In this document: positions 2,068-20,819 of the stretch, one piece after another
How the letters are laid out: each line of letters starts with the position of its first letter
Position numbering within the stretch: the first letter of the stretch is position 1
Notes under the pieces: generated by a model
What the model saw: the letters and a program-made list of their open reading frames with translations, nothing else
What the model was told of the DNA's origin: nothing
Database searches by the model: none
DNA from: Streptomyces afghaniensis 772
Lineage (GTDB): Bacteria > Actinomycetota > Actinomycetes > Streptomycetales > Streptomycetaceae
Direction: 5' to 3'
NCBI GenBank assembly: GCA_000415505.1
Contig: KE354153.1
Location: forward strand, 1-35,890
DNA: 35,890 nt
Translations under genes and position numbers: made by a program

Positions 2068-2069
2068 CT

Positions 2070-2293: not shown

Positions 2294-2347
2294 GCAGCCA
2301 GTTGCCCCTGGCACGGACCTGAGGGCCGTAGGAGGGCCGCGTGCGCG

Positions 2348-3401: not shown

Positions 3402-4211
3402 TCAGCCCTTCGGGGGCACCAGTCCTTGCCGCACCGCGAGCAACGCGGCCTGGGTGCGGGAGGTGAGCCGGAGTTTGCGCAGTACGTTGCTCACGTGGGT
3501 GCGGGCGGTGCGCTCGCTGATCACCAGCTCGTCGGCGATCTGCTGGTTCGAGCGGCCCTCGGCGACGAGCACGAGGACGTCGCGTTCCCGGCTGGTGAGC
3601 GAGGCGAGCCCGGTCGGCGGCGAAACGATCTCCTGGGTGAGTCCTCTGGCCACCTCGGGGTCGAGGAAGACCTCGCCCCGGGCGGCCGCGCGGATCGCGG
3701 CGACCACCTCGCTTGCGTCGGCGTCCTTGAGCAGGTAGCCGGCGGCCCCCTGCGCGAGCGCCGCATGAACGCGTTCCATCTCGCCGAAGCTGGTGAGCAC
3801 CACAAGTCGGAGACCAGGGTGGCGCTGCTTGATCGCTCCGATCGCCGTCGCCCCGTCCATCTTGGGCATGAGCAGGTCGATCAGGACCACGTCCGGCAGT
3901 TCCTGGTGAGCGGCCATCGCGTCGAGCCTGGTGAGTGCCTCCTGGCCGTCGGCGGCCTCCGCGGCCACTTCCATGTCGTCCAGGACTTCGAGGTAGGCGC
4001 GGATTCCGCGGCGTACGACGGCGTGGTCGTCGACGATCAGGACCCGGACCGGGCGGGGTTCTCGGTTCCCCGGAGCGGAACCGCCGATGGGATGCTCCCT
4101 GATCCCTCCGAGCCCGGGGGCGACTCCGGCACTCGTACGGGAAGGGGTATGACGACCCGTACGGTCGTGCCGCTCCTGGCGCCGGATCTGATCCTCATGG
4201 TGCCGCCCCAT
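3402..4211 (-). CDS. NarL/LuxR-type response regulator (start uncertain)
   Basis: The recognisable protein spans codons from 4049 down to 3402. A receiver domain begins VRVLIVDDHAVVRRG, has the phospho-acceptor Asp in DVVLIDLLMPKMDG and the conserved Lys in GYLLKDAD. A LuxR-type helix-turn-helix follows (LTSRERDVLVLVAEGRSNQQ, then ISERTARTHVSNVLRKL). It would receive phosphate from the histidine kinase encoded just upstream and bind DNA. Oddity: between the receiver and the ATG at 4211 there is no in-frame ATG, GTG or TTG, so the shortest standard start adds a 54-residue tail overlapping the kinase's ATPase region. Either translation starts at a non-standard codon near 4050, or an indel in the kinase/regulator overlap hides the real start. 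The regulator itself is secure. Confidence 0.8.
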   Translation of the reverse strand: MGRHHEDQIRRQERHDRTGRHTPSRTSAGVAPGLGGIREHPIGGSAPGNREPRPVRVLIVDDHAVVRRGIRAYLEVLDDMEVAAEAADGQEALTRLDAMAAHQELPDVVLIDLLMPKMDGATAIGAIKQRHPGLRLVVLTSFGEMERVHAALAQGAAGYLLKDADASEVVAAIRAAARGEVFLDPEVARGLTQEIVSPPTGLASLTSRERDVLVLVAEGRSNQQIADELVISERTARTHVSNVLRKLRLTSRTQAALLAVRQGLVPPKG

Positions 4212-5689
4212 CGCTCTGTCCTTTCCCGCATGGTCCTCAGTCCGTAGCCGTGGTGTCCGGTGACAGTGGCCGCCTCGCCGTCCTCGTTCTCCTGTGCGGC
4301 CCGTCGCCCGCCGGATTCCGTGACCCCGCGGCCGTCGTCGCGGATGGCGGCGGTCAGGGTGTGGTCGTGTACGGCGAGGCGGATGGTGACGGTGGTGGCC
4401 TCCGCGTGCTTGACCACGTTGTGGATGGCCTCCCCGACGATCCGGTACATGTCCTCGGCCAGTTCCGGTTCGACCGTGTCCACTTGCTGTCCGCACTCCA
4501 GCCGGATGCTGAGGCCCGTCCGGTTCTCGGTGCTTTTGACGAGCGTGGTCACCGCGTCCTCGAGGCCGAGCCGGAGGGAGGAGGCGGGACGTAGTTCGTG
4601 CACCATGGCCCTCAGGTCGGCGAGGACGGTTCGCGAGAGGGTCCCGACCTCGTCCGCGAAGGCGCGGACCGCTTCCGCCGGCACCGCTTCGTCCCGCGCG
4701 CCCAGCACTCCCACGGCGTTGGCCTGCATGCCGATGGAGAACACCTGCTGCACGATCGAGTCGTGCAGGTCGCGGGCGAGGCGCTGACGCTCGTTGCGGC
4801 GGGCGCCCTCGCGCTCACGCTGAAGCAGCGTGGCGTAGTCGACGGCGAGGGCGGCCTGTTCCGCCATGGCGGCGAGGAACTCCAGGGTCCGGCTCCCGAT
4901 CTCCTGCCCGGGGGCGAAGTAGGCGTTCAGCACCCCTTCGGGACGACCGCGCGCCATCAACGGCACACTGACGAAGGAGTCCCAGTTCAGCTCCCCGAGG
5001 TAGGCGTGCAGCGGTTCCCAGGCCGGGTCCTCGAGGATCTGGGCCCACCGGTGCGGGACGACGATCGGCCTGCGCTCCTTCAGGGTGTCCAGCATGCACA
5101 GCCGGGCGCCCCGGTCACGGCACTCCAGCAGACGGTCGAGGAACGCGTCCCAGTGGCGCAGTCCCGCGGAGCCCATCAGCCGCAGTTCCCGGCCTGTGCT
5201 GTCGAGGGTGAGGATCTGCACGCCCGCCAGGCCGTCCGCCTGGACGATCTGCTGGGCCACAGCGTCCAGTGTGGAGCCGAGCGAGCCCTCCGAGGCCAGT
5301 GCGATCGACGTCCGGGCGATCGCCGCGATCCTGCGCTGCCGGTGCCATTCGTCGGTGACGTCGCGGAACGACACCACCGTCAACTTCGGGTCGGCCGGCA
5401 GACTGCGGGCGCGGTACGCGAACTCGCGTCGGGGTCCGCGGGCGGGCTCCCAGTGGGCCACCTGCTCGTCCGACCGGACCTCCAGCAGCCCCGCGCGGCA
5501 CTCGGCGGCTCCCTCCACCAGGGTGAACGGGGACGGCGCACCGATGAGGTCGCCCTCTGTGTCCGCCCGAAGCAGCGCGGCCGCCGCCGGGTTCAGCCGT
5601 ACGAACCGGCCCACGCAGTCCAGAACGGCGAGGCCGTCCGGCGCGACGGCGGCGATGTCGTCCCACCCCACGAGCGGCGACGCGGACAT
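4037..5689 (-). CDS. sensor histidine kinase, PAS-GAF-HisKA_3-HATPase
   Basis: A 550-residue soluble kinase with no membrane segment. Residues ~10-115 resemble a PAS domain (AVLDCVGRFVRLNPAAAALL). Residues ~135-290 form a GAF-like domain (VSVPLMARGRPEGVLNAYF). The dimerisation/phospho-acceptor segment ERQRLARDLHDSIVQQVF puts the phosphorylated His at about 309. The ATPase part has the N box EAIHNVVKHA (~420-429), the G1 box DDGRG (~451-455) and GYGLRTMRERTERWGG (~481-496). It should autophosphorylate on a cytosolic signal sensed by PAS or GAF and pass phosphate to the overlapping response regulator. The ATG at 5689 follows GGGAG. The 370-base gap to the divergent acyl-CoA synthetase holds two palindromes, so that synthetase is a candidate target. 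Confidence 0.9.
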   Translation of the reverse strand: MSASPLVGWDDIAAVAPDGLAVLDCVGRFVRLNPAAAALLRADTEGDLIGAPSPFTLVEGAAECRAGLLEVRSDEQVAHWEPARGPRREFAYRARSLPADPKLTVVSFRDVTDEWHRQRRIAAIARTSIALASEGSLGSTLDAVAQQIVQADGLAGVQILTLDSTGRELRLMGSAGLRHWDAFLDRLLECRDRGARLCMLDTLKERRPIVVPHRWAQILEDPAWEPLHAYLGELNWDSFVSVPLMARGRPEGVLNAYFAPGQEIGSRTLEFLAAMAEQAALAVDYATLLQREREGARRNERQRLARDLHDSIVQQVFSIGMQANAVGVLGARDEAVPAEAVRAFADEVGTLSRTVLADLRAMVHELRPASSLRLGLEDAVTTLVKSTENRTGLSIRLECGQQVDTVEPELAEDMYRIVGEAIHNVVKHAEATTVTIRLAVHDHTLTAAIRDDGRGVTESGGRRAAQENEDGEAATVTGHHGYGLRTMRERTERWGGTMRIRSGARSGTTVRVVIPLPVRVPESPPGSEGSGSIPSAVPLRGTENPARSGS

Positions 5690-6059: not shown

Positions 6060-7700
6060 GTGAACGTGTCCATCGGCACGATCTGGGAGGCGGTCTGCCG
6101 CGCGCTGCCCGATGCCGTCGCCATCACGGAACCCGGTCGTGGGACCACGTACCGGGAGTTCGACGAGCGCGCGTCACGGCTGGCCGCCGCACTGGAAGCC
6201 GTCGGGGTGGGCGAGGGCCACACCGTGGCCTGCTATCTGTACAACGGCGCCGCCTACCTGGAGACGGTCTTCGCCGCCTTCAAGCTCGGTGCCATACCGG
6301 TGAACGCCAACTACCGCTACACCGGCGAGGAACTTTCCGAACTCCTGACCGACGCCGACGCCGCCGCGGTCGTCTTCAGCGGCGCCCTGGCCGACCGCGT
6401 CACGCATGCCGCGAAGCATGTGCGCACACTGAAGCTGCTGGTGAGGGTGGGCGAGCCGCCCGCCGACGGTCCGGGCGGGCCCACGGTGCCCGAACTGGAG
6501 GAGCTGCTGACCGCGCACCCGCCGCGCGAGCCTCAGCGACGGCCCGGAACGGACCAGCTGTTCATGTACACCGGCGGGACCACGGGCAAGCCGAAGGGCG
6601 TCATATGGCAGCTGAGCGACCTGCTGCGCGCCCACGTGGTCCCGTTCTACCACCCGCTCGGAGTCACCGAACTTCCCGCAAGCCTCGACGAGGCCGTGGC
6701 CGTCGCCGTCAAGGCACGCCACGAAGGCCGCGCGCCGACCACGATGCCCGTCGTACCCCTGATGCACGCCACCGGGCTGTTCAACACCATGGGCGCCCTG
6801 ATGACAGGAGGCCGGGCGGTCACCCCACGAGCGGGCGGCCTCGACCCGGAACATGTCTGGCACATGATCGCCGAGCAGCGGGTCGATACGGCCATCATCG
6901 CGGGCAACGCCGTGTGCCGCCCGCTCGTCGACGAACTCCTGCGGGCTGAGAAAGCCGGGACGCCGCACGACCTGCGCTCGTTGCGCAGGATGATCAGCTC
7001 CGGCACCGCGCTCAGCGATCCGCTCAAGAGGGCACTGCACGAACGTGCCGACATCACCATCACCGAAGCCATCGCATCGAGCGAAGGGGGCCCTTTCGCC
7101 TTCGCGATCACCTCCTCGGTAGAGGATCTGCCCTCGCGTTTCCGCCCCGTTCCGGCGACGCGGGTGATCGGCTCCGATGACCGCTTTCTCGAACCAGGCA
7201 GCGACGAGACGGGCGTCCTCGCCTATTGCGGGCCCATGCCGCTCGGCTACTACAAGGACACCGAGAAGAGCGCGAAGGCATACCGCACCATCGAAGGGGT
7301 CCGGCACGCGATCCCCGGCGACCTGGCTCGAATCGAAGCCGACGGCGCGATCCGGTTCCTCGGGCGCGGCTCGGGCGTGATCAACACGGGCGGGGAGAAG
7401 GTGCACCCGCAGGAGGTGGAGAACGTACTGCTGGGGCATCCGGAGGTGACGGACTGTGCCGTCGTCGGCGTCCCCGACGAGACCTGGGGCGAGCGTGTGG
7501 CGGCCGTCGTGGCGGTCCGGCCGGGCAGTACCGTCACCGGCGACGAACTGCGCGACCTGGTCCGGCAGAGTCTCGCCGGGTACAAGGTGCCGCGTTCCAT
7601 CGTCCTGACGGACAGACTGCCGCGGACCCCGACCGGCAAGCTCGAGACCGCCTGGGCCAGGAAGACGGCCCAGGAAGCCGGCTCGGGCGACGGAATGTGA
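6060..7700 (+). CDS. acyl-CoA synthetase (AMP-forming)
   Basis: A 546-residue adenylate-forming enzyme that would activate a carboxylic acid to its CoA thioester through an acyl-AMP. Motifs in order: the phosphate-binding loop MYTGGTTGKPKGV (~170-182), a second core motif region ITEAIASSEGG, the hinge stretch FLGRGSGVINTGGEKVHPQE, and the C-terminal lysine motif PRTPTGKLE near residue 530. Length is normal for the family. The GTG start follows AGGAGG eight bases upstream. The gene faces the divergent two-component system and converges on the GntR gene with only a 14-base gap. The sequence style is that of FadD3/FadD19-like actinobacterial ligases acting on cyclic or bulky acids, but the substrate cannot be read from the sequence. 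Confidence 0.88.
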   Translation: MNVSIGTIWEAVCRALPDAVAITEPGRGTTYREFDERASRLAAALEAVGVGEGHTVACYLYNGAAYLETVFAAFKLGAIPVNANYRYTGEELSELLTDADAAAVVFSGALADRVTHAAKHVRTLKLLVRVGEPPADGPGGPTVPELEELLTAHPPREPQRRPGTDQLFMYTGGTTGKPKGVIWQLSDLLRAHVVPFYHPLGVTELPASLDEAVAVAVKARHEGRAPTTMPVVPLMHATGLFNTMGALMTGGRAVTPRAGGLDPEHVWHMIAEQRVDTAIIAGNAVCRPLVDELLRAEKAGTPHDLRSLRRMISSGTALSDPLKRALHERADITITEAIASSEGGPFAFAITSSVEDLPSRFRPVPATRVIGSDDRFLEPGSDETGVLAYCGPMPLGYYKDTEKSAKAYRTIEGVRHAIPGDLARIEADGAIRFLGRGSGVINTGGEKVHPQEVENVLLGHPEVTDCAVVGVPDETWGERVAAVVAVRPGSTVTGDELRDLVRQSLAGYKVPRSIVLTDRLPRTPTGKLETAWARKTAQEAGSGDGM

Positions 7701-7714: not shown

Positions 7715-8272
7715 TCAGCTCGCGCGGTGCCTACCTGCTTCAAGCATCCGGAGGGCCTCCACCGCAGTGGCGCCATGGTCCCGCATGGCCGCTTCGGCCG
7801 CGGTCGGGTCCTTGGCGATCATCGCCTCGATGATCCGCTGGTGCCGGGGCAGCGACACACGGGCCCGTCCCGGCATCAGGGAGAGCACGGAGTGGTGCCG
7901 CACCACCTGGGCCCGCAGCCGTTCGAGAACCTGGTCGGCCGTCTCGTGGCCGGCGATGTCGCGCACACAGCGGTGCAGACGGGCGTTGAGGTCGCTGTAC
8001 GTCATCAGTTCGCCGTCGGCGACCGCCCTAGCCATGCTCGCGCCGATGCCACGCAGTTGTTCGGCCTGCGCCCGGCCGACCCGCTCCGTCGTACGAGCGG
8101 CGATCAGCCCCTCCACCGCCAGCAGCCGGAGTGCCGACCTGACGTCGGCGGGGCCGGCGCCGAACCGTTCGCAGAGGTCCGCCTCGATCAGGTGCTGTCG
8201 CGGCAGGTACTCACCGCTCAGGAGCGCGCCCCGGACCGCACCGGTGACGTCGGTTTCCACAGGAAGGCTCAC
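7715..8272 (-). CDS. GntR-family (FCD) regulator, apparently shortened
   Basis: A 185-residue regulator. The winged-helix part is seen in LLSGEYLPRQHLIEADLCER and PADVRSALRLLAVEGLI; the C-terminal part has FCD features such as DLNARLHRC, VVRHHSVL and PRHQRIIEAM, whose histidines normally bind metal. Typical relatives are 210-230 residues. Here GLI runs straight into AARTTERVGRAQAEQLRG, so about 30 residues covering the DNA-binding wing and first FCD helix look to be missing in frame. It lies 45 bases downstream of the aldolase gene, same strand, and probably forms an operon with it. It is the obvious candidate regulator of both the aldolase and the divergent ring-cleavage operon. Start is GTG; a GGAGG lies 13 bases upstream, rather far. 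Whether it still works is open. Confidence 0.75.
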   Translation of the reverse strand: MSLPVETDVTGAVRGALLSGEYLPRQHLIEADLCERFGAGPADVRSALRLLAVEGLIAARTTERVGRAQAEQLRGIGASMARAVADGELMTYSDLNARLHRCVRDIAGHETADQVLERLRAQVVRHHSVLSLMPGRARVSLPRHQRIIEAMIAKDPTAAEAAMRDHGATAVEALRMLEAGRHRAS

Positions 8273-8317: not shown

Positions 8318-9001
8318 TCAGTCCTGATAGACCACGCCCAGGTCGGCGAGCCTGGCGCGCAGTCCGTAGTGGTCGACGCCCAGCGTCCCGGAGCGCAGGA
8401 CCTCGCGGGTGGCCGCCTCCTTGGCGAGCCGCTTCTCCGCGAGCTCGGCCGCCTCGTCCGCCTCCGCGAGGGGCACCACGACCACACCGTCGTCGTCGGC
8501 GACGACGACATCGCCAGGGGAAACGGTCACCCCGCCGAGCGCCACGGGAACGTTGACCGAACCCGGGGAGGCCTTCACCGTGCCCTGGGCGGACACCGAA
8601 CGGGCCCAGACATGGAAGCCCATGTCCCGCAGTTCGGCGGTGTCGCGTACACCGGCCCCCGTGACCAGGCCGATGACGCCCCGGGCGGCGAGGGACGTCG
8701 CCAGCAGTTCGCCGAACATCCCGTCCGTGGACGGCGAGGTCGTGGTCACCACGAGGACGTCACCGGGCCGGCAGACCTCGACGGCGGCATGGATCATCAG
8801 GTTGTCTCCCGGGTGGGAGCTCACCGTCACCGCGGGGCCCGCCATACGCACGTTCCGCTGGTTGGGCCGCAGGCCGGTCCCCGCGAAGCCGCGGCGGCCG
8901 ATGGCCTCGTGGACCGTGGACACCCCCGCCTCGGCGAGCCGGGCGACGACATCGGCGGCAGGCCGGTCGATGTTCCTCACGACGACATGACGGTTCGGCA
9001 T
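8318..9001 (-). CDS. 4-carboxy-4-hydroxy-2-oxoadipate aldolase (LigK/GalC/ProA type)
   Basis: A 227-residue RraA-fold protein. Length and long matching stretches equal those of class II CHA/HMG aldolases: HPGDNLMIHAAVE, TDGMFGELLATS, GAGVRDTAELRDMGF (R119 and D120, the usual substrate- and metal-binding pair), GTVKASPGSVNVPV and PGDVVVADDDGVVVVP. These enzymes split 4-carboxy-4-hydroxy-2-oxoadipate into pyruvate and oxaloacetate with a divalent metal, the last step of protocatechuate 4,5-cleavage and of gallate breakdown; many also decarboxylate oxaloacetate. ATG follows GGAGGA. The divergent gene encodes the hydratase that makes its substrate, which supports the aldolase call over the RNase-inhibitor RraA role. 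The gntR gene follows. Confidence 0.87.
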   Translation of the reverse strand: MPNRHVVVRNIDRPAADVVARLAEAGVSTVHEAIGRRGFAGTGLRPNQRNVRMAGPAVTVSSHPGDNLMIHAAVEVCRPGDVLVVTTTSPSTDGMFGELLATSLAARGVIGLVTGAGVRDTAELRDMGFHVWARSVSAQGTVKASPGSVNVPVALGGVTVSPGDVVVADDDGVVVVPLAEADEAAELAEKRLAKEAATREVLRSGTLGVDHYGLRARLADLGVVYQD

Positions 9002-9195
9002 GTTTCCTCCGGGCTGTGCCAGGGCTGGTGTCAGGAGAATTCACGAAGACAACACTATTGTCAACAGAAATGCTGGCTATACGGTGACATCGATTGACTT
9101 GACCTCTTTCGTCCCGTCTTCTCTTCGTCACATACGCACAGGGGCAAGGGACTTCGCATCACGTCGCCCACCCCACTCGATCTCAAGGAGTCCTG
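9002..9195. promoter_or_regulatory. divergent promoter region of the aldolase and ring-cleavage units
   Basis: A 194-base, relatively AT-rich gap. It holds the inverted repeat GACAA-cacta-TTGTC at 9048-9062. On the minus strand a TTGACA (complement of 9060-9065) overlaps the repeat and has AATTCT 17 bases further along (toward the aldolase), a possible promoter. On the plus strand TTGTCA at 9058 and TATACG at 9078 are too close for a good match. FCD-type GntR proteins often bind TTGTC/GACAA half-sites, so the adjacent gntR product may act here. Confidence 0.5.
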
Positions 9196-9945
9196 ATGAC
9201 CTCCCACACCTCCACTCCGTCCGAAGGGTCGCTGCTGGTGATCAGCGCGCACGCGGGCGACTTCGTCTGGCGGGCCGGTGGCGCCATAGCCCTCGCCGCC
9301 GAACGCGGTCAGCGCGCAAAGGTGTTGTGCCTGAGCTTTGGTGAGCGCGGCGAGTCCGCCCGTGCCTGGCGGGACGGTCTCGCCCTGGACGAGATCAAGG
9401 CGCTGCGCCGCACCGAGGCAACGAACGCCGCGGCCGCCCTGGGTGCAGAGATCGAGTTCCTGGACGCCGGGGACTACCCGCTGCTGGAGACACCGGAGTT
9501 GGTGGACCGCATCGTGCGCGTGTACCGGGAGGTGGACCCCGCGGTCGTCCTCACCCACACCCTTGCCGACCCCTACAACGGCGACCATCCGGCCGCCGCC
9601 CGCATGGCGCTCCAGGCACGCGTACTGGCCCAGGCGGTCGGCTACGACGCGCCCGGCGAACCGCTCGGCGCTCCCCCGGTGTTCTTCTTCGAGCCGCACC
9701 AGCCGGAGCAGTGCGACTTCAAGCCGAACGTCCTGCTGGACATCACCCCGGTCTTCGACAAGAAGCGCAAGGCCATGGAGTGCCTGGCCGCCCAGCAGCA
9801 CATGTGGGACTACTACACCGACCTCGCCAAGCGGCGCGGCGTCCAGCTGAAGCGCAACGCCGGCCCCAACCTCGGCCTCTCGCACGGAACCATGGGAGAG
9901 GCGTACGTGCGGCTCTACCCGCAGACGACGGGTGTTCTGGCGTGA
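9196..9945 (+). CDS. galB: 4-oxalomesaconate hydratase, GalB type (PIG-L family)
   Basis: A 249-residue member of the zinc-dependent PIG-L/LmbE family. Instead of the usual AHPDD it has SAHAGDFVWRAGGA (H19, D22), the variant characteristic of the GalB branch, followed by LSFGERGESARAW, THTLADPYNGDHPAAAR (H121, H131 as probable metal ligands) and QQHMWDYYTDLAKRRG. GalB hydrates 4-oxalomesaconate to 4-carboxy-4-hydroxy-2-oxoadipate in Pseudomonas putida gallate catabolism. Here the divergent neighbour encodes the aldolase that consumes this product, and LigAB-like subunits lie in the same rightward unit. AAGGAG precedes the ATG with good spacing. Its stop overlaps the next gene's GTG. The main alternative, a deacetylase of mycothiol or similar type, is less likely given the motif and context. 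Confidence 0.85.
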   Translation: MTSHTSTPSEGSLLVISAHAGDFVWRAGGAIALAAERGQRAKVLCLSFGERGESARAWRDGLALDEIKALRRTEATNAAAALGAEIEFLDAGDYPLLETPELVDRIVRVYREVDPAVVLTHTLADPYNGDHPAAARMALQARVLAQAVGYDAPGEPLGAPPVFFFEPHQPEQCDFKPNVLLDITPVFDKKRKAMECLAAQQHMWDYYTDLAKRRGVQLKRNAGPNLGLSHGTMGEAYVRLYPQTTGVLA

Positions 9946-10280
9946 CGGCACAGGGCGGGACGGGTGTCCGTGGGGCTACGCACATCTGGGTTCCCTTCCG
10001 GGACACGTGCCTTTACGTGCAGTTCGCGGACGAACCCGACGGGGCGAACGGACCGGCCCCGACGTACGACCGCCTGAGCCTGTTGGCCGATGCTGTCGCC
10101 GAGGACGCGCTGACACGCGACGACCGCTACGGCGTACCGATGTGGCGCACCGACGTCCGACAGCTGCACGCCGTCGTGGAGGCCCTCTGGAACGAGGACG
10201 ACCGCCAGGTGCGGATCCATCTCGACCAGGCTCCGCGGCCCGACGGGCGTGCCGGGACACCCGGCCCGCGCGACGGATGA
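9942..10280 (+). CDS. small protein of unknown function, coupled to galB
   Basis: A 112-residue protein starting at a GTG that overlaps the galB stop (GTGA), so translation is probably coupled. No family is recognised. It begins with THIWVPFRDTCLYVQFAD, is acidic in the middle (AEDALTRDDRYG), has WRTDVRQLHAVVEALW, predicted helical, and ends in a proline/glycine-rich tail. There is no signal peptide, membrane segment or cysteine cluster. Position between the hydratase and the oxygenase genes suggests a role in the ring-cleavage pathway, for example as a small auxiliary subunit, tautomerase or chaperone, but nothing in the sequence decides this. The reading frame keeps strong third-position GC, supporting a real gene. 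Confidence 0.65.
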   Translation: MTAQGGTGVRGATHIWVPFRDTCLYVQFADEPDGANGPAPTYDRLSLLADAVAEDALTRDDRYGVPMWRTDVRQLHAVVEALWNEDDRQVRIHLDQAPRPDGRAGTPGPRDG

Positions 10281-10424
10281 CGTAGTCGGGGCCACGACCA
10301 TGCGCCGCCCCGGTCCGGTCATTCGAGCGATGACCTGGGCATTGTCCGCTGGCTAGCGTCGATCGTGGCGCCGCCGACCGCGGCCGGAGCGATCCCTGCC
10401 GACCGTACCGAGGAGATGACGAAC

Positions 10425-11462
10425 GTGACGAGCCCCCCAGCCGCCGCCCCGGACACGCACGCCCTCGGTTTCGCCGAGGCCGGAACGCCGTCCGTCGCCC
10501 TGCGCGGCACCGAGTTCGAAGGCACCGCCACCGTAGTGGCCCGCCAGACGGTGGCGGACGGTGTCGTGTCGCTGGAACTCGCGGCGAGCTCCGGCGAACC
10601 GCTGCCGTCCTGGCAGCCGGGAGCACACATCGACGTCGTCCTGCCCACGGGCGTCACCCGGCAGTACTCGCTCTGCGGCCCGGTGAAGGACACGGCCCGC
10701 TGGCGCGTGGCGGTGCTCCGAGAGTCCGACGGACGCGGCGGATCGCAGTGGATCCACGACCACCTCGTGGAGGGCGGCGAACTCCGGGTGCGCGGCCCGC
10801 GCAACAACTTCCCGTTGCGGCCGGCGGGCCGGTACCTGTTCGTCGGCGGCGGCATCGGCATCACCCCCCTGCTCCCGATGATCGCCGAGGCCGAGGCGGC
10901 GGGCGCCGAGTGGTCCCTGCTCTACGGGGGCCGCACGCGCGCGTCCATGGCGTTCCTGCCCGAACTGGAGGGCTACGGCGAGCGCGTGACCGTACGTCCG
11001 CAGGACCAGTACGGTCTGCTCGACCTCGCCGGTTTCCTCGGCGATCCCGACCCGTCCGCCCTGGTGTACTGCTGCGGCCCCGCGGGGCTCATCGACGCGG
11101 TCGAGGCACACTGCGCCGGCTGGCCGACCGGAGCGCTGAACGTCGAGCGGTTCGCCGCGGCGGCCGTGCGACAGCCGGCGGACGATGAGGCCGAGCAGCC
11201 GATCGAGGTGGAACTGCGGGCGTCCGGGACGACGCTGACCGTGCCGCCCGGGCTGTCGGTCCTCAAGGCCGTGGAGCAGGCGGGCGTCCCTGTCCTGTCG
11301 TCCTGCGAGGAAGGCATCTGCGGCTCGTGCGAGACCTCCGTCCTGGAGGGCGAGGTCGACCACCGCGACTCACTGCTCACCGACGACGAGCGGGCAGCGA
11401 ACGACACGATGCTGATCTGCGTCTCCCGCGCGCGGGGCCGACGCCTCGTCCTGGATCTCTGA
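10425..11462 (+). CDS. VanB-type oxidoreductase: FAD, NAD and plant-type [2Fe-2S] domains
   Basis: 345 residues from a GTG that sits nine bases after GAGGAG; an ATG at 10416 is too close to that site and a GTG at 10365 has none. The order is that of phthalate-dioxygenase-reductase/VanB proteins: flavin site RQYSLCG (~79-85), NAD site LFVGGGIGITPLLPM (~138-152), CCGPAGLIDAV, then a C-terminal ferredoxin with C294-x4-C299-x2-C302-x29-C332. It carries electrons from NAD(P)H to the Rieske oxygenase encoded next, 60 bases downstream. A 144-base gap after the small unknown gene could hold an additional promoter. The assignment to a one-protein reductase of a two-component Rieske system is secure. 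Confidence 0.92.
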   Translation: MTSPPAAAPDTHALGFAEAGTPSVALRGTEFEGTATVVARQTVADGVVSLELAASSGEPLPSWQPGAHIDVVLPTGVTRQYSLCGPVKDTARWRVAVLRESDGRGGSQWIHDHLVEGGELRVRGPRNNFPLRPAGRYLFVGGGIGITPLLPMIAEAEAAGAEWSLLYGGRTRASMAFLPELEGYGERVTVRPQDQYGLLDLAGFLGDPDPSALVYCCGPAGLIDAVEAHCAGWPTGALNVERFAAAAVRQPADDEAEQPIEVELRASGTTLTVPPGLSVLKAVEQAGVPVLSSCEEGICGSCETSVLEGEVDHRDSLLTDDERAANDTMLICVSRARGRRLVLDL

Positions 11463-11522
11463 TACTTCGTCAATTCGACAGGCGGACTGCCCCGTTGGGC
11501 CGACGTCAAAGGAAGGACCGCC

Positions 11523-12569
11523 ATGACACTGACACAGCACGTGCGCAACGGCTGGTACCTGGGAGCCTGGTCCGACGAGATCGGCCGAACCCTCAAGCAG
11601 CGCTGGATCACGGACCTCCCGGTCTGCTTCTACCGACTGCCCGACCAGACCGTCACGGCCGTCGAGGACCGCTGCCCCCACCGCAAGTACCCGCTGTCGC
11701 TGGGCCACCTCGACGACGACGGAACCCTCCAGTGCGACTACCACGGCTACCGCTTCGACGGCCAGGGCCTGTGCGTCGGGGTCGCCGAGCAGGCCGACAG
11801 GCCCAAGGCGGCACTGCGCCGCTTCCCCCTGGTCGAGCGGGACGGCGCCATATGGATCTGGCCCGGAGACCCCGAACTGGCCGACGAGAGCCTCCTGCCC
11901 GACACCTCGTGGCTGACCGACCCGAACTGGACCCATGTGCACGGGGTCGTCCCGCTGAAGGCCCGGCACCTGCTGCTCCTGGAGAACCTGCTCGACCTCA
12001 CCCACGAGACGTTCCTGCACCCGAGCAGCATCGGCAACGCCGCCGTCGCCGCGACCCCGATCGACGTGACGGTGGACGGCGACCGGGTCGGCTTCAGCCG
12101 CCGCATGATCGGCATCGAGGCGCCGCCGTTCTACGAGAAGTCCTGCGGACTGACCTCTCCGGTGGACCGCTGGCAGGACGGCGACTTCTACCCGCCGGGC
12201 ATCTTCGTCCTCAACATCCGCGTCGCGGCAACCGGCACCGAGGAGCCGGACGGCTTCCACATGAAGGTGCTGTACGGGATGACGCCGGGGCGCGGCAACG
12301 AGACGCACGACTTCTACGCGCTCGGCCGCGACTACCTCATCGACGACCAGGAGCTCACGAAGTTCCAGCACGAGCAGCAACTGGCCGTGATGCAGGAGGA
12401 CGTCGACGCCCTGGAGGCGCAGGAGATCATGTACGCCACCGACCCGGGCGGCACCGCCGAGTCCAGCATCAAGTCCGACCTCGCCGCACTCCGCGGACGC
12501 CGGGCGGTGGCGAAGATGCTCACCCGCGAACAGCAGGCCGGCGGCACGCGGCCCCGGGCGTCCGCATGA
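11523..12569 (+). CDS. VanA-type Rieske oxygenase, terminal component
   Basis: 348 residues, ATG preceded by GGAAGGA. The Rieske cluster ligands are C51-x-H53 (CPHRKYPLSLGH) and C71-x2-H74 (CDYHGYRF). The catalytic mononuclear iron site shows in ENLLDLTHETFLH (D158, H161, H166). Length and pattern fit the VanA branch (vanillate/syringate-type O-demethylases, toluenesulfonate methyl-monooxygenase) and related phthalate-type single-subunit oxygenases. With the VanB-like partner it would attack an aromatic acid before ring cleavage. O-demethylation giving protocatechuate, 3-O-methylgallate or gallate fits the LigAB and GalB genes; a dihydroxylation followed by the SDR is the alternative. Its stop overlaps the next ATG by four bases (ATGA). 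Confidence 0.9.
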   Translation: MTLTQHVRNGWYLGAWSDEIGRTLKQRWITDLPVCFYRLPDQTVTAVEDRCPHRKYPLSLGHLDDDGTLQCDYHGYRFDGQGLCVGVAEQADRPKAALRRFPLVERDGAIWIWPGDPELADESLLPDTSWLTDPNWTHVHGVVPLKARHLLLLENLLDLTHETFLHPSSIGNAAVAATPIDVTVDGDRVGFSRRMIGIEAPPFYEKSCGLTSPVDRWQDGDFYPPGIFVLNIRVAATGTEEPDGFHMKVLYGMTPGRGNETHDFYALGRDYLIDDQELTKFQHEQQLAVMQEDVDALEAQEIMYATDPGGTAESSIKSDLAALRGRRAVAKMLTREQQAGGTRPRASA

Positions 12570-13282
12570 GCGGCCGCCACGTCTTCGTACTGCTCCACGG
12601 AGCCTGGCACGGCGGCTGGGTGTGGCAGCGTGTCGCCCCGCTGCTGCGCGCGGCCGGACACGAGGTGCACACCCCCACGTTGACCGGGGTGAGTGACCGC
12701 GCCCATCTGCTGAGCCCGCAGATCGGTCTCGGCACGCACGTCGAGGACGTGGTGGCGCTGATCGAGGCCCATGACGCCCGGGATGTCGTGCTCGTCGGCC
12801 ACAGTTACGCGGGCCAGGTCGTCACCGGCGTCGCGGACCGGATCCCGGACCGGCTTGCGAAGCGGGTCCACCTCGACGCCTTCGTCGGCGACGACGGTGA
12901 CGCGGCGATCGATCTGCTGCCCGACCGCATCGCCGGGCACTACCGGGAGTCCGTGGCCGGCCCCGGGTTCGGCTGGCTCATCCCGGTGCGTTCGCTGAGC
13001 GTGCTCGGCGTCGAGGACCAGGCGGACCTCGACTGGCTCGGCCCGCGGCTGACCCCGCACCCGTGGCTGACCTACACCGAGCCACTGCGGCTGACCGGCA
13101 AGGCCGACCAGGTCCCCGGCGCCTTCGTCGAGTGCACCGACTGGATGCGGGTGTTCACCCCGCACGCCGGGCGCGCCGCCGCCCGCGGCTGGCCGGTCCA
13201 CGAAATCACCACCGGACACGAAGCGATGGTCACCGCCCCCGGCCGACTCGCCGAACTGCTGCTGGAGATCGCGGCAGCCTGA
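12566..13282 (+). CDS. alpha/beta hydrolase, methyl-esterase-like
   Basis: 238 residues, ATG overlapping the oxygenase stop. The oxyanion-hole motif LLHGAWHGGWVW (~9-20), nucleophile GHSYAG (S80), a probable acid at D192 (CTDWMRVF) and TGHEAM (H218) complete the triad. The N-terminal pattern resembles the salicylate/methyl-esterase group of small hydrolases (plant MES proteins and bacterial EstC-like enzymes). In this operon it could hydrolyse the methyl ester left when a 3-O-methylgallate ring is opened, or open the lactone 2-pyrone-4,6-dicarboxylate in place of the missing LigI. Fold and triad are clear. The substrate is inferred from neighbours only. Confidence 0.85.
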   Translation: MSGRHVFVLLHGAWHGGWVWQRVAPLLRAAGHEVHTPTLTGVSDRAHLLSPQIGLGTHVEDVVALIEAHDARDVVLVGHSYAGQVVTGVADRIPDRLAKRVHLDAFVGDDGDAAIDLLPDRIAGHYRESVAGPGFGWLIPVRSLSVLGVEDQADLDWLGPRLTPHPWLTYTEPLRLTGKADQVPGAFVECTDWMRVFTPHAGRAAARGWPVHEITTGHEAMVTAPGRLAELLLEIAAA

Positions 13283-13302
13283 CCCCGTGAAGGACATCCC
13301 CC

Positions 13303-13584
13303 GTGGAATTCCTCGTCCGCACCGAGAACACCTTGCCCCCGGACACCCCCGACGACGTACGCGAGGAGCTGCGCAAGGGTGAGCGCGAACGGGCCATGCA
13401 ACTCAGGGAGGCCGGCATCCTCAAGCGGCTGTGGCGGGTGCCTGGCCGGAACGCGACCATCGGCCTGTACGAGGCGGCCGACCCGGCACAGCTGCACGAC
13501 GCGCTGGTCTCCCTGCCGATGTGGAAGTGGATGGACATCACCGTCGAGGCACTCGCCACCCATCCGCAGGAGAAGGCACCATGA
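13303..13584 (+). CDS. muconolactone-isomerase-like small protein
   Basis: 93 residues, close to the length of CatC. It begins EFLVRTENTLPPD and continues with AMQLREAGILKRLWRVPGR, NATIGLYEAADPAQLHDAL and SLPMWKWMDITVEAL, the arrangement of the ferredoxin-like muconolactone delta-isomerase family (CatC: MLFHVRMDV..., R-x-G...LWRxxG, LPL). No cis,cis-muconate pathway genes (catA, catB) are nearby, so muconolactone is an unlikely substrate. A double-bond shift or tautomerisation of the ring-cleavage product, such as 4-oxalomesaconate keto-enol or cis-trans isomerisation, would fill a gap in the pathway. The GTG start follows AGGA. The stop overlaps the next ATG (ATGA), so it is tightly coupled to the SDR gene. 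Confidence 0.8.
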   Translation: MEFLVRTENTLPPDTPDDVREELRKGERERAMQLREAGILKRLWRVPGRNATIGLYEAADPAQLHDALVSLPMWKWMDITVEALATHPQEKAP

Positions 13585-14324
13585 CCGGCCCGGCGAACCG
13601 CAGCCCCCGGGTCGCCGTGGTCACGGGCGCCGCCGGCGGCCTGGGGCTCGCCATCGCCCGCAGACTGGCCGGGGACGGTTTCACGGTCGCCGCCCTCGAC
13701 GTCGACGAACCCGACGACACCAGCTCGATCCCGGGCGGCCGGGCCTGGCGTTGCGACGTCGGGGACCCGGCCGCGACCCGCCAGACCGTATCCGAGATCG
13801 CCGAGGCGTACGGCGGGGTCGACGTCCTCGTCAACAACGCCGGCCTGCTCTCCGGCCGGGCGCCGCTGCTGGAGACGACCCCGGAGGAGATGCACCGCTT
13901 CTTCGCCGTCAACGCCGTCGGCCCGCTGCTCATGGCGCAGGCGTGCGCGCCCTGGCTGCGCAAGAGCCCGTACCGCGGCCGGATCATCAATGTCGCCTCC
14001 CGCACCTTCTTCACGGGGCCCCCGGGCCAGATCGCCTACGTCGCGAGCAAGGGCGCGCTCATCGGGATGACCCGGGTGATGGCACGCGAACTGGGCGAGC
14101 ACCGGATCACGGTCAACGCGGTGGCGCCCGCGCAGGTGGCCACCCCGGGCACCCGGGCGCACTCCGGCGACGAGGTGTTCGCCGCGACCATGAGCCGGCA
14201 GGCGATCAAGGAGTTCGTCACCCCGGAGCAGTTCGCGGGGCTGGTCTCCTATCTCGCCTCGCCGGACGCGGTCATGGTCACCGGCCAGACGTTCGTCTGC
14301 GACGGCGGCGGGCTCCTGCACTGA
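13581..14324 (+). CDS. short-chain dehydrogenase in the ring-cleavage operon
   Basis: 247 residues. Motifs: VTGAAGGLGLAIAR (cofactor loop), ALDVDEPD (Asp favouring NAD), VNNAGLL, the active-site Ser in INVASRTFF, and the Tyr-x3-Lys in IAYVASKGAL; the C-terminus TGQTFVCDGGGLLH is standard. Two roles are possible. It may be a dihydrodiol dehydrogenase acting after a Rieske dioxygenation, or it may oxidise the cyclic hemiacetal of 4-carboxy-2-hydroxymuconate semialdehyde to 2-pyrone-4,6-dicarboxylate. The latter is normally done by LigC, a Gfo/Idh/MocA-type enzyme that is absent here. The overlap with the isomerase-like gene and the 32-base gap to ligA mark it as part of the operon. Substrate not determined. 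Confidence 0.87.
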   Translation: MTGPANRSPRVAVVTGAAGGLGLAIARRLAGDGFTVAALDVDEPDDTSSIPGGRAWRCDVGDPAATRQTVSEIAEAYGGVDVLVNNAGLLSGRAPLLETTPEEMHRFFAVNAVGPLLMAQACAPWLRKSPYRGRIINVASRTFFTGPPGQIAYVASKGALIGMTRVMARELGEHRITVNAVAPAQVATPGTRAHSGDEVFAATMSRQAIKEFVTPEQFAGLVSYLASPDAVMVTGQTFVCDGGGLLH

Positions 14325-14356
14325 CCGTCATCCACACCGGAGAGGAGAAGAACAGC

Positions 14357-14713
14357 ATGTCCAGCACCACACCCCGGGTCCCCGGCACCTATGTCTTCGA
14401 CGCCGCGGAGAACCGCCGCGGCCGAGCGTTGAACCGGCTCTGCGGGTCCCTCAAGGACGCCGAGAACCGGGAGAGGTTCAAAGCCGACGAAGCCGCGTAC
14501 TGCGAGACGTACGGGCTCACGGCCGAGCAGCGCGACGCCGTTCTGCGGCGGGACTGGAACCGGATGATGGAGCTGGGCGGTTCCATCTTCTACGTCTTCA
14601 AGCTCGCCATGGTCGACCAGAAGTCCATGCAGTACCTCGGCGGGGTCTTCACCGGCATGACCACCGAGGAGTTCGCGCAGGCGCTGAAAGCGGGAGGGCG
14701 GAACTTTGGCTGA
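14357..14713 (+). CDS. extradiol dioxygenase alpha subunit, LigA-like
   Basis: 118 residues. VPGTYVFDAAENRRGRALN, ENRERFKADEAAYCETYGL, MELGGSIFYVFKLA and TGMTTEEFAQAL match the small alpha subunit of protocatechuate 4,5-dioxygenase, which caps the active site of the catalytic beta subunit. Length is close to Sphingobium LigA. The ATG follows GAGGAGAAG. The next gene, the beta subunit, starts eight bases inside this one, which secures equal synthesis of the two chains. Because LigAB-type enzymes act on protocatechuate, gallate and 3-O-methylgallate to different degrees, the exact substrate stays open. Confidence 0.92.
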   Translation: MSSTTPRVPGTYVFDAAENRRGRALNRLCGSLKDAENRERFKADEAAYCETYGLTAEQRDAVLRRDWNRMMELGGSIFYVFKLAMVDQKSMQYLGGVFTGMTTEEFAQALKAGGRNFG

Positions 14714-15554
14714 GGTGATATGGGGTCTGGCGACCTCGCACGTGCCGTCGATCGGTGCGGCCATGGACCACGGGAAGACGCAAGACCCGTACTGGAAGCC
14801 GCTGTTCGACGGATACACACCGGCGCGGGAGTGGATGGCCCGCCACACCCCTGACGTCGCGGTCGTTGTCTACAACGACCACGCCAACGCCGTCGACATG
14901 AGCGTCACCCCGGCCTTCGCGCTCGGGACGGCGGAGTCGTACCGCGTGGCCGACGAAGGATGGGGCAGCCGCCCGGTGCCCGCCGTCACGGGCGCTCCCG
15001 AGTTCTCCGACCACCTCGTCAAGAGCCTGATCGACGCCTCTTTCGACCTCACCGTCTACCAGGAACTCGACGTCGACCACGGCCTGACCGTTCCGCTGTC
15101 GGTGTACTGCCCCGACCCCGGCGAACGCTGGCCCTGCGCGGTGGTCCCCCTCCTGGTCAACGTCATCCAGTACCCGCAGCCGACCGCCGCGCGGTGCCTG
15201 GCCCTCGGCCGCGCGCTCGGCGAGGCCATCCGCTCCTTCCCCGAGGACCTCAAGGTCGCCGTCTTCGGCACCGGCGGCATGTCCCACCAGCTCGCCGGCG
15301 CCCGCGCGGGACTGATCAACCAGGACTTCGACCGGATGTTCCTCGACGCGATCGAGCACGACCCCGAGAAACTGGCCGCGCTGACGCGCGAGGAGTACAT
15401 CCGCGAGGCCGGCTCCGAGGGCATCGAGCTGATCATGTGGCTGATCATGCGCGGCGCGCTGGGACCCCGGATCCGCCGTCTGTACGAGGCCTACCACGTA
15501 CCGGCGTCCAACACGGCGGCCGGGATGGTGCTGTTCGAGAACCTGAGCCGGTGA
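14706..15554 (+). CDS. extradiol dioxygenase beta (catalytic) subunit, LigB-like
   Basis: 282 residues from a TTG overlapping ligA by eight bases; GGGAGG lies about eight bases before it, and the next GTG (14715) is too far from that site. All class III extradiol residues are present: H12 (LATSHVPSIG), H59 (YNDHANAVDM) and E241 (GSEGIELIMW) as Fe(II) ligands, and H194 (GTGGMSHQLAG) as catalytic base, matching H12, H61, E242 and H195 of Sphingobium LigB. DVDHGLTVPLS and HVPASNTA are also family signatures. It cleaves a catechol-type carboxylate next to a hydroxyl with O2, giving 4-carboxy-2-hydroxymuconate semialdehyde from protocatechuate or 4-oxalomesaconate directly from gallate. It is about 20 residues shorter than LigB at the C-terminus. 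Confidence 0.93.
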   Translation: MAEVIWGLATSHVPSIGAAMDHGKTQDPYWKPLFDGYTPAREWMARHTPDVAVVVYNDHANAVDMSVTPAFALGTAESYRVADEGWGSRPVPAVTGAPEFSDHLVKSLIDASFDLTVYQELDVDHGLTVPLSVYCPDPGERWPCAVVPLLVNVIQYPQPTAARCLALGRALGEAIRSFPEDLKVAVFGTGGMSHQLAGARAGLINQDFDRMFLDAIEHDPEKLAALTREEYIREAGSEGIELIMWLIMRGALGPRIRRLYEAYHVPASNTAAGMVLFENLSR

Positions 15555-19172: not shown

Positions 19173-19198
19173 GGCCCGTCACCGGTCGGTGACGGGCC
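19173..19198 (+). terminator. hairpin terminator after the SnoaL gene
   Basis: GGCCCGTCACC (19173-19183) and GGTGACGGGCC (19188-19198) form a perfect 11-base stem with a four-base loop, 27 bases after the stop of the SnoaL gene. A short T-run (GTGTTTC) follows. Confidence 0.75.
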
Positions 19199-19213
19199 AC
19201 GTGTTTCCCGACC

Positions 19214-19258
19214 GCGGACATCGGTCGTCCGCTGTACGGACGGATGTCCGGACAGCGG
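19214..19258. promoter_or_regulatory. nested palindromes before the dioxygenase remnant
   Basis: GCGGAC (19214-19219) pairs with GTCCGC (19227-19232), and CCGCTGT (19229-19235) pairs with ACAGCGG (19252-19258). TGTCCGGACA is a further perfect palindrome inside. They lie just upstream of the ATG at 19289 and look like an old operator for the broken intradiol dioxygenase gene. Their regulator is unknown. Confidence 0.35.
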
Positions 19259-19288
19259 TCGCGGCCGGAACGGATCGAGGAAGATTCC

Positions 19289-19836
19289 ATGGCCTTCGTG
19301 ACGGAGGACAACCTCAGCGACCTGGCGGTGAAGCGGTGGGCCACGGCGCACTCGCCCGGCTCGCCGAGCTGATGACAGCGTTGGTGCGGCACCTCCACGC
19401 GTACGCCCGCGAGGTCGGGCTGACGGAGGAGGAGTGGGCGGCTGCCGTCGAATGGCTCACGGCGACCGGCCGGATCAGTGACGACAAGCGTCTGGAGTTC
19501 ATCCTCGCCTCCGACGTCCTGGGTCTCAGCACGCTCGTAGTCCAGATGAGCCACCACTTCTCGGCGGACGCCACTCCGGCGACGGTGCTCGGTCCGTTCC
19601 ACATCGACGGCTCTCCGACGGCCGGTTTCGGAGCCGACATGTCGGGCGGCATCCCGGGCACGCCGCTGTTCATCACCGGCCGGGTCCTCGACCTCGACGG
19701 CACGCCTCTGCCCGACGTCGTCCTGGACGTGTGGCAGGCCGACGCCGACGGCGCCTACGAGGCGCAGCTGCCGGACATCGACGAGGCCCGGCTGCGCGCG
19801 CTGTACCGGACGCGGGCGGACGGCACGTACTGCGCG
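19289..19836 (+). pseudogene. hydroxyquinol 1,2-dioxygenase-type intradiol dioxygenase, frameshifted and truncated
   Basis: The ATG at 19289 opens MAFVTEDNLSDLAVKRWA, the family N-terminus. One base is lost between 19354 and 19357, and the match continues in the next frame: RLAELMTALVRHLHAYARE, FILASDVLGLSTLVVQM, ATVLGPFHIDGSPT and VLDVWQADADGAYEAQLPD. Similarity stops at LYRTRADGTY, near 19836. The tyrosine in DGAYEAQ is the first iron ligand; the second tyrosine and the two histidines of the R-PAHVH region are gone. Intact relatives are about 280-300 residues; about 180 remain. The enzyme class opens hydroxyquinol in resorcinol and similar pathways. Both lesions are inactivating. No partner genes such as maleylacetate reductase are nearby. 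Confidence 0.85.
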
Positions 19837-20203
19837 CAAGGGAGGTCCGTCGCGCCGGCCGAGGCGACGGCCGCTTCCCGACTGCCCCGGCCTGCCAGGT
19901 CCGGCACGGGTAGGTCGGCCACGACCCTCGCGCGCGTCCTCCCAGAGTTCGAAGCCGCTCCGGCAGAGATCCTCTACAACGGCGCCCAGTGGGCGCGGGC
20001 CTGGCCAGGGGCCGGGTGAGGATGACCGTCGGCCTCATCACGGCCGCACTCTCCGGCTTCGGGGGTGACGGGCGGCCGCCAGGGGCTGCACCGCGTCCCC
20101 GCCGGGACGAAGCCGAGAAGACCGCCGTCCCGGCGCAGCGGAACCGTGCTCACATGCCCGCCCGGCCCGTGGGCGGCGCGAGAGCGCCCCGGTAAAGCGC
20201 CGT
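19837..20203. other. decayed stretch with no recognisable gene
   Basis: About 370 bases. The frame of the dioxygenase remnant stays open to a TGA at 20017-20019, but its residues (for example EFEAAPAEILYNGAQWARA) match no family that I recognise. It may be debris of the lost dioxygenase C-terminus or of another gene. No RNA gene or clear repeat is seen. Confidence 0.4.
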
Positions 20204-20217
20204 AAACCGATCGGTTT
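20204..20217. promoter_or_regulatory. TetR operator in its own promoter
   Basis: AAACCGATCGGTTT is a perfect 14-base palindrome 32 bases before the TetR ATG. It overlaps a possible -35 (TTTTCA, 20215-20220) that lies 17 bases before TAATCT (20238-20243). The same sequence recurs at 21048-21061 and, slightly changed, at 21071-21086. Confidence 0.75.
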
Positions 20218-20249
20218 TCATTCTGTCCACATCGAGTTAATCTCGCGGC

Positions 20250-20819
20250 ATGGCCACCGAAGTAAAGCCAAGTACCAGAGAGCGGCTGCTGCAGGCGGCG
20301 GCCACGCTCACCTACCGAGACGGTGTCGGCATCGGCGTCGAGGCGCTGTGCAAGGCGGCGGGGGTGTCGAAGCGCTCCCTGTACCAGCTGTTCGAGAGCA
20401 AGGACGAACTGCTGGCGGCGAGCCTGGGGGAACGCGCCTCTGCCTTCACGGCCGGGCTCCTGCCGGCGGCGGACTACGGCCGTTCACCCCGCGAGCGGAT
20501 CCTGCACGTCTTCGGCCAGCTGGAGGAGCAGGCGGGTGCGCCCGACTTCCAAGGCTGTCGGTACCTGGCTGCTCAGATCGAGCTCAAAGACCAGAGCCAC
20601 CCTGCGAGCCAGGTGGCCCACCGGGTCAAAGAGAATCTGACCGCCTTCTTCCGCGCCGAGGCCGAACGGGGCGGGGCAAGCCATCCCGACCTGCTGGCCC
20701 GGCAGCTCAGCCTGATCTTCGACGGCGCCAGCGCCCGGGCGGGGATCGGAGCCGACAATCCGACAGGGCTCGTCACGCCCACCGTGACCACCCTGCTCGA
20801 TGCGGCAGGCATGCACTGA
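20250..20819 (+). CDS. TetR-family regulator
   Basis: 189 residues. STRERLLQAAATLTYRDGVG, then LCKAAGVSKRSLYQLFESKDEL, form the helix-turn-helix domain with recognition helix around KRSLYQLF. The ligand domain contains GCRYLAAQIELKDQSHPA, a feature of TetR proteins near QacR/YcdC-like Streptomyces regulators. No ribosome binding site precedes the ATG, and the -10-like TAATCT ends only six bases before it, so the mRNA may be leaderless. Palindromes at 20204, 21048 and 21071 bracket the gene, so it probably represses itself and the alpha/beta hydrolase downstream. Confidence 0.9.
   Translation: MATEVKPSTRERLLQAAATLTYRDGVGIGVEALCKAAGVSKRSLYQLFESKDELLAASLGERASAFTAGLLPAADYGRSPRERILHVFGQLEEQAGAPDFQGCRYLAAQIELKDQSHPASQVAHRVKENLTAFFRAEAERGGASHPDLLARQLSLIFDGASARAGIGADNPTGLVTPTVTTLLDAAGMH

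Follow-up and report, generated by a model that had tools for sequence, protein, structure and literature searches.

A gene cluster of Streptomyces afghaniensis 772 that probably serves syringate catabolism via 3-O-methylgallate, with a muconolactone isomerase-like protein as predicted tautomerase

Syringyl units account for a large share of hardwood lignin. The genetics of syringate breakdown by bacteria have been resolved in few strains, none of them an actinomycete in the passages of the literature that were consulted. In Pseudomonas sp. NGC7, according to the parts of the report consulted, the route comprises VanA1B1, MgaAB, MgaC, MgaD together with GalD, GalB and GalC, under a GntR repressor; MgaC is an alpha/beta hydrolase acting on the methyl ester CHMOD, an mgaC mutant turns syringate into 2-pyrone-4,6-dicarboxylate (PDC) at 95%, and the strain is unable to use PDC and needs both the SnoaL-like MgaD and GalD (PMC12314914). 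The same authors mention in 2025 that actinomycetes carry vanA1B1 homologues and predicted full sets (PMC12314914). In Novosphingobium aromaticivorans and Sphingobium SYK-6, the corresponding roles are held by DesA, LigAB/DesZ, DesC and DesD, in the passages seen of PMC8091115 and PMC6888825. Here we analyse a gene cluster of Streptomyces afghaniensis 772 located at positions 8318-15554 of a stretch of 35,890 nt, the whole of which is called the window.

An initial annotation had read this interval as a protocatechuate 4,5-cleavage cluster in which a short-chain dehydrogenase/reductase (SDR), an alpha/beta hydrolase and a CatC-like protein of the muconolactone isomerase type (MIase) stand in, one to one, for LigC, LigI and LigU. 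The genes that it named (LigA and LigB, a GalB-type hydratase, a LigK/GalC-type aldolase, the SDR, the hydrolase and the CatC-like protein) are all present by family scores, and the cluster itself holds no LigC-, LigI- or LigU-family gene. However, a Rieske oxygenase (11523-12569, plus strand) and a reductase (10410-11462, plus strand) inside the interval had been left out, and this changes the interpretation. We consider it probable (roughly 0.7) that the cluster serves syringate catabolism via 3-O-methylgallate (3MGA). From the observed gene content, conservation, catalytic residues, folds, alternation of O-demethylases and absence of LigC, LigI and the LigU family from particular genomes, we infer all substrates and reactions as follows. 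The Rieske oxygenase and its reductase would take one methyl group off syringate as formaldehyde, and LigAB would cut 3MGA beside the remaining methoxy group to give CHMOD. Because this fission product still bears a methyl ester, an esterase is needed, a role that the alpha/beta hydrolase would fill by converting CHMOD to 4-carboxy-2-hydroxymuconate (CHMA) and methanol, ahead of cyclisation to dead-end PDC. The MIase, with Glu27 as acid/base, would ketonise CHMA and so do the work of MgaD and/or GalD/LigU; hydration by GalB and cleavage by GalC would then yield pyruvate and oxaloacetate. The SDR would be accessory, and LigC and LigI would not be needed.

Among the known systems, NGC7 comes closest. 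As far as the van-mga-gal genes are described in the text consulted, both systems combine a Rieske O-demethylase, a LigAB-like dioxygenase, an alpha/beta hydrolase, a tautomerase, GalB, GalC and a GntR regulator, and neither has LigC or LigI; in Streptomyces the first three lie in one operon, and the order is kept in the compact operons described below. In contrast to the SnoaL-like MgaD, the PrpF-family GalD and the fdhA2 reported for NGC7 in that text, the Streptomyces cluster has the MIase, the SDR and a two-component system, and no SnoaL-type protein was found among the ten cluster proteins scanned with NCBIfam and Pfam. The N. aromaticivorans and SYK-6 routes are alike in O-demethylation to 3MGA, cleavage to CHMOD, ester hydrolysis and isomerisation but differ, in the passages seen, by a folate-type DesA, by branching with PDC and gallate side routes, and by the presence of LigI, LigU and LigJ (PMC8091115, PMC6888825). 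The 4,5-cleavage systems of Arthrobacter keyseri pRE1 and Sphingomonas sp. R1 pR1a share LigAB, LigK and the final steps with the Streptomyces cluster, whereas they carry Gfo/Idh (LigC) and amidohydrolase (LigI/LigJ) genes, and R1 has a LigU-type tautomerase as well; neither a MIase nor an alpha/beta hydrolase was seen in the pRE1 and pR1a stretches covered.

A LigB scan of the named genomes yielded 253 confirmed relatives; the analysis used the best 80, each with at most 10 kb of flanking sequence on either side. These have 70-98% LigB identity and are titled Actinobacteria in the list seen. By tblastn over the 80 loci, LigA and LigB were found in 80 each, the hydrolase in 74, the MIase in 70, the GalB-type gene in 42, GalC in 40, the Rieske oxygenase in 25 and an SDR ortholog (at least 65% identity) in 16. 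Gene calling and clustering of 81 loci, the window included, gave the hydrolase in 74, the MIase in 68 and both in 67, with the hydrolase at most four genes from LigB in 72, and the GalC and GalB clusters occurred jointly in 34. The core is thus LigAB, hydrolase and MIase, and the SDR lies outside it, since its ortholog is far rarer than the two other genes. Four loci (L083, L104, L107 and L124) show a one-direction operon in the order reductase, GalB, GalC, Rieske oxygenase, hydrolase, MIase, LigA, LigB, and no SDR, aldehyde dehydrogenase or LigC relative was recognised in the stretches fetched. Their genomes gave no PrpF-family match and LigC scores of 53-71 bits; three of them (G215, G220, G221) gave no LigI match, and the fourth (G223, with L124) holds a 38% LigI relative. 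If its gene set is complete, this compact operon would run from syringate to pyruvate and oxaloacetate. Moreover, the locus is split in three Pseudonocardia genomes (G230, G231, G237), where hydrolase and MIase stand beside GntR and GalB-GalC, apart from LigAB, an arrangement that links the two genes to the reactions that follow ring fission and precede GalB. Hydrolase matches on Variovorax and Microvirga plasmids were set aside: the Variovorax surroundings are without ring-cleavage genes and the Microvirga record is unannotated.

The O-demethylases point to the substrate. Among the 81 loci, 39 carry a LigM/DesA type and 25 a Rieske type, so that 64 have one or the other and none has both, an alternation with a hypergeometric probability of 5e-10, uncorrected for kinship. 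Because an O-demethylase adjoins the core in these 64 loci, the core is tied to methoxylated aromatic acids. At least six swaps between folate-dependent and Rieske types occurred on the LigB tree, and metF/purU/folD clusters accompany 38 of the 39 folate-type loci, against none of the 25 Rieske loci. With the core unchanged, such exchange of O-demethylases is a clear-cut example of non-orthologous replacement. Two LigM/DesA copies are present in 20 loci: the first copies tested (3/3) are LigM (vanillate/3MGA O-demethylase) with 893-899 bits against a cut-off of 580, and the second copies tested (5/5) have DesA (syringate O-demethylase) as their best match, with 566-574 bits against a cut-off of 800. 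The folate-type version was also seen on the mobilizable Rhodococcus opacus plasmid pRop44186_a (L126), with a complete one-carbon set of metF, purU, folD, folE, folP, pabB and formate dehydrogenase-like genes.

In S. afghaniensis, the Rieske oxygenase has a VanA C-terminal domain (PF19112, 125 bits; PF00355) and is the proposed syringate O-demethylase. The ferredoxin/flavin reductase before it (PF00111, PF00175; an alternative upstream start at 10365 is possible) is its proposed electron donor in the VanB role; it is PaaE/BenC/GbcB-like with every equivalog score under cut-off, and 37% identical to the annotated PDR/VanB of Roseomonas mucosa. The LigA-like small subunit (14357-14713, plus strand) scores 117.6 bits on TIGR02792 (cut-off 108.6), and the LigB-like catalytic subunit (14706-15554, plus strand), the proposed 3MGA dioxygenase, scores 391 bits on NF009903 (cut-off 317); its nearest solved structure is LigAB (1b4u/1bou), followed by gallate dioxygenase (3wku).

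VanAB of Streptomyces sp. NL15-2K is reported to yield 3MGA mixed with gallate from syringate, in the part of the source seen (PMC9867520), and it might be asked whether both methyl groups are removed here, with LigAB as a gallate dioxygenase giving OMA, the MIase as OMA tautomerase and the hydrolase serving an earlier step, on methyl gallate or a similar plant ester. LigM lies over its cut-off in folate-type loci, and the GalB and GalC types suit gallate pathways. Nevertheless, the hydrolase is kept with LigAB as tightly as the MIase (74 and 70 of 80 loci), in the compact operons its gene follows that of the O-demethylase and precedes that of the MIase, as would befit an enzyme of the ring-fission product, and LigB reaches 321.6 of the 412 bits required by the gallate dioxygenase model and is nearer the LigAB structure; we therefore regard a gallate route as improbable.

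Protocatechuate 4,5-cleavage, the pathway of the initial annotation, would make the SDR a LigC that turns the hemiacetal CHMS into PDC, the hydrolase a LigI, the MIase a LigU and the Rieske pair a vanillate O-demethylase. The closeness of LigB to LigAB of known structure agrees with this; LigAB types accept both protocatechuate and 3MGA according to the part seen of PMC8091115. The SDR (13581-14324, plus strand) has pyridoxal 4-dehydrogenase as its best NCBIfam score, and the genome is without LigC and LigI, two further points in favour. Pyridoxal 4-dehydrogenase oxidises a cyclic hemiacetal to a lactone, which is LigC-like chemistry, and alpha/beta hydrolases can open lactones, as 3-oxoadipate enol-lactonase does; both facts count for the same route. 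However, the SDR fails the pyridoxal model (190.6 against 325 bits), and its orthologs are restricted to the window's clade, with 13 Streptomyces loci, and to three further loci (L061, L063, L079), as set against the wide occurrence of hydrolase and MIase. In L054 and L060, which belong to the same clade, the MIase is directly followed by LigA with no SDR between them, and 34 of the 74 loci with hydrolase and LigB have no SDR, aldehyde dehydrogenase or LigC relative. The SDR was accordingly rejected as a general pathway member on account of its patchiness and is not supported as a LigC. An R. opacus plasmid with the same core carries, beside the LigM-type gene, an SDR 71% identical to an SDR-cluster member. 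Protocatechuate 3,4-dioxygenase (TIGR02422, over cut-off) was found in all 34 genomes searched, S. afghaniensis included, so that there is no need for another route from protocatechuate; this and the O-demethylase inside the cluster argue against protocatechuate as the substrate, and we hold the protocatechuate pathway to be very unlikely.

The missing families were also sought in whole genomes, with Sphingomonas sp. R1 proteins as LigC and LigI queries and the A. keyseri record as control. In S. afghaniensis, the best LigC match was a generic Gfo/Idh protein (66 bits, 31% over residues 3-146), the best LigI match reached 39 bits, and of 10 Amidohydro_2 places none of the 6 scanned with NCBIfam was LigI; the LigU/GalD family was represented by a split match under cut-off, described below. 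A LigC, LigI or LigU hidden elsewhere in this genome was thus rejected, no full member having been found, and the canonical Lig set is incomplete in cluster and genome alike. LigC was found in only 2 of the 35 records searched, the A. keyseri control (73%) and G214 (54%). The proposed one-to-one correspondence between extra genes and missing reactions survives for one of the three genes, the tautomerase; a non-homologous replacement for LigC or LigI is probably not what this cluster represents.

The alpha/beta hydrolase (12566-13282, plus strand) had been suggested to be a PDC lactonase, and its neighbours in fold and sequence, mainly methylesterases, speak against this, as does its counterpart in NGC7, which acts on CHMOD in the text consulted (PMC12314914). 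We propose, from its position and from the published description of MgaC, that it may be the MgaC counterpart, a CHMOD methylesterase in the MgaC/DesC role; its conservation with LigB, its residues and its fold are consistent with this. Sequence comparison with solved structures brings up SABP2 (methyl salicylate esterase), hydroxynitrile lyases, polyneuridine aldehyde esterase and a pheophorbidase-like protein. For the structure model (pLDDT 91), the top folds are 6tj2 (tobacco SABP2-like), 8hfw (an alpha/beta fold hydrolase), MES16 and SABP2, and Ser80 and His218 are invariant in 37/37 aligned homologues; nearest fold and Ser/His residues thus place it in the SABP2/MES-type fold group. Since this group also holds hydroxynitrile lyases and methylketone synthase, it is best described as a putative methylesterase.

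The MIase (13303-13584, plus strand), proposed here as a CHMA/OMA tautomerase, scores 108 bits on PF02426 (cut-off 26.7) and was rejected as a true CatC, being under the cut-off of the equivalog TIGR03221 (80.7 against 130.6 bits). It has the fold of ClcF and muconolactone isomerase (TM 0.84-0.90), and shares length and Glu27 with CatC muconolactone isomerase and ClcF chloromuconolactone dehalogenase. Glu27 is present in 68/68 cluster members and corresponds in the alignment to the position exchanged in ClcF E27A (structure 3zo7). The members share Arg6, Arg35, Trp76, Glu82 and mostly Asn50/Thr52, which are absent from the 3 CatC compared; such additional arginines would fit a substrate that bears a further carboxylate group. 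They form a separate branch (support 91/79, not starred, over 92 columns), and a search of the S. afghaniensis genome with the MIase as query found no other MIase.

The LigU/GalD family was searched with NF033377 (cut-off 440) over the 34 cluster genomes, and with PF04303 over the 11 without a match and 13 further genomes, mostly picked for a MIase not adjoining LigB. NF033377 matched in 23/34 genomes, in 17 of them over the cut-off. The family was absent from 18/47 genomes, namely 11/34 by NF033377 and PF04303 and 7/13 by PF04303, and these absences carry less weight in that the locus-derived genomes have no completeness value and 5 of the 47 are titled metagenome-assembled genomes (L080, L085, L088, L095, L102). 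All 18 hold a MIase at least 54% identical to that of S. afghaniensis, and in 10 of the first 11 the locus includes GalB and GalC. A near MIase is missing from two of the 13 further genomes (G234, 37%; G235, none), and both have a PF04303 match, that of G235 being a fragment only. Every genome examined therefore holds a MIase or the LigU/GalD family. In this respect the initial annotation, which had seen in the CatC-like protein an actinomycete's non-homologous stand-in for LigU/GalD, holds as a predicted role of the MIase. In S. afghaniensis itself, the matches stayed under the cut-off: one on contig C726 is divided between two reading frames (216 and 25 bits), and a weaker one is on C641 (63 bits). 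The C726 match (19704-20788) is a PrpF/OMA-tautomerase-family gene flanked by a LysR gene and a transporter, and is either a pseudogene or the product of a sequencing error.

The strongest version of our proposal, which we hold to be somewhat less likely than not, is that the fold was recruited as a CHMA tautomerase forming 2-keto-4-carboxy-3-hexenedioate directly, much as 4-oxalocrotonate tautomerase acts on 2-hydroxymuconate. The pathway would then skip both the keto form of OMA and the reaction of LigU/GalD, giving a complete eight-gene operon from syringate to the tricarboxylic acid cycle with a constant core and an interchangeable O-demethylase. Alternatively, the MIase might be a cis-trans isomerase/tautomerase for CHMOD/CHMA only, in the MgaD/DesD role, with the GalD step left to an unrecognised protein or to GalB. 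NGC7 requires MgaD and GalD both, in the text consulted (PMC12314914), MIase and LigU/GalD family coexist in 23/34 genomes, and in several genomes GalD-type genes lie close to LigI, as if serving a PDC branch. We find this restricted role rather unlikely in view of the 18/47 genomes without LigU/GalD, among which 10 of the first 11 encode GalB and GalC within the cluster. GalD-type genes lie within about 4 kb of a LigI gene in G224, G225, G226, G227, G228 and G092, and the association is weak overall (10/13 genomes with LigI, 13/21 without). In L138 and L142, too, a LigI and an OMA tautomerase gene are no more than about 4 kb apart, functionally distinct from the MIase.

Several observations weigh against the syringate pathway as proposed. 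The DesA-like copies fall under the curated cut-off, 17/81 loci show neither O-demethylase type, and LigM alone would also turn 3MGA into gallate, with no esterase required. The counts from the 80 loci describe close kin, as the LigB identities indicate. The coexistence with the LigU/GalD family means that the MIase need not replace GalD everywhere, and the 54% LigC of G214 lies near the cluster. LigI relatives of more than 200 bits occur in 13/34 genomes, as in the control, which makes PDC hydrolysis possible there; such genomes could salvage PDC formed non-enzymatically from CHMOD, so that PDC would not be a dead end everywhere. In the hydrolase, the usual acid position, 192, is Asp in 17/37 homologues, and Asp104 is invariant (placed by eye). 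Finally, kinship with the hydrolase of the R. mucosa van-lig cluster had to be rejected, as the nucleophile elbow alone aligns. That cluster, on a plasmid (L131, 4026-21178), has its unrelated-looking alpha/beta hydrolase directly after LigB, possibly a separate independent recruitment for the same step.

The logic of the pathway is known already. The literature searched, as far as its passages were consulted, was not found to describe the recruitment of this fold, the interchangeability of the O-demethylase or the cluster's wide distribution in Actinobacteria; a search by titles and abstract openings found no description of a MIase in a syringate, 3MGA or CHMOD pathway. If true, tautomerisation by a MIase would add a new function to a small and well-studied fold, and would account for completion of the pathway in genomes without LigU/GalD. 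The constant core across many actinobacterial genera provides a direct gene list for testing, and blocking the hydrolase should give PDC, a polymer building block, as in NGC7 according to the text consulted (PMC12314914).

The window has a GC content of about 70% and sits on contig C448 of a 9.85-Mb genome in 1724 contigs; its nearest named relatives at this locus are Streptomyces. Genes were called with our own codon-usage caller trained on the window, and small or frameshifted genes may escape it (e.g. in L059 and L070). The plus strand carries, in order, the GalB-type gene, a small open reading frame, the reductase, the Rieske oxygenase, the hydrolase, the MIase, the SDR, LigA and LigB, with the aldolase and GntR genes on the opposite strand. 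Starts and stops overlap at 12566/12569, 13581/13584 and 14706/14713, and the overlapping plus-strand genes are read as one operon. The GalC/LigK-type, RraA-like 4-carboxy-4-hydroxy-2-oxoadipate (CHA) aldolase (8318-9001, minus strand; PF03737) scores 311.5 bits on NF006731 (cut-off 179) and stays under the narrower model TIGR02798 (266.9 against 304.5 bits); it is 50-55% identical to LigK/GalC of Sphingomonas sp. R1, R. mucosa and A. keyseri. The GalB-type hydratase, which would convert 2-keto-4-carboxy-3-hexenedioate to CHA, is a PIG-L protein (9196-9945, plus strand; PF02585, 82.8 bits), and its label is assigned from family and synteny, with no equivalog model behind it. The small open reading frame (9942-10280, plus strand; 112 aa) gave no NCBIfam or Pfam family match, was matched in 14/80 loci and is kept between GalB and reductase in related Streptomyces.

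Upstream, a GntR-type regulator (7715-8272, minus strand) was recognised by gene call and sequence inspection, and its cluster occurs in 15 loci. An acyl-CoA synthetase (6060-7700, plus strand; NF005863, 526.5 bits against a cut-off of 543) is linked in part of the loci, with a match of at least 50% identity in 17/80. A GAF-type sensor histidine kinase (4037-5689, minus strand; MctS/MadS-like, under cut-offs) and a response regulator (3402 to about 4049, minus strand) recur as clusters in 52 and 45 of the 81 LigB loci, which makes this two-component system (3402-5689) a candidate sensor for methoxylated aromatics, the kinase being a candidate regulator. Elsewhere in the window, an open reading frame at 19189-20019 (plus strand) resembles by eye an intradiol ring-cleavage dioxygenase, perhaps broken, with no NCBIfam match at 1e-30. 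An aldehyde dehydrogenase gene at 1426-2484 (minus strand) matches family models by its C-terminal half only (profile positions about 250-480) and looks truncated or frameshifted, and an SDR at 2348-3259 adjoins it.

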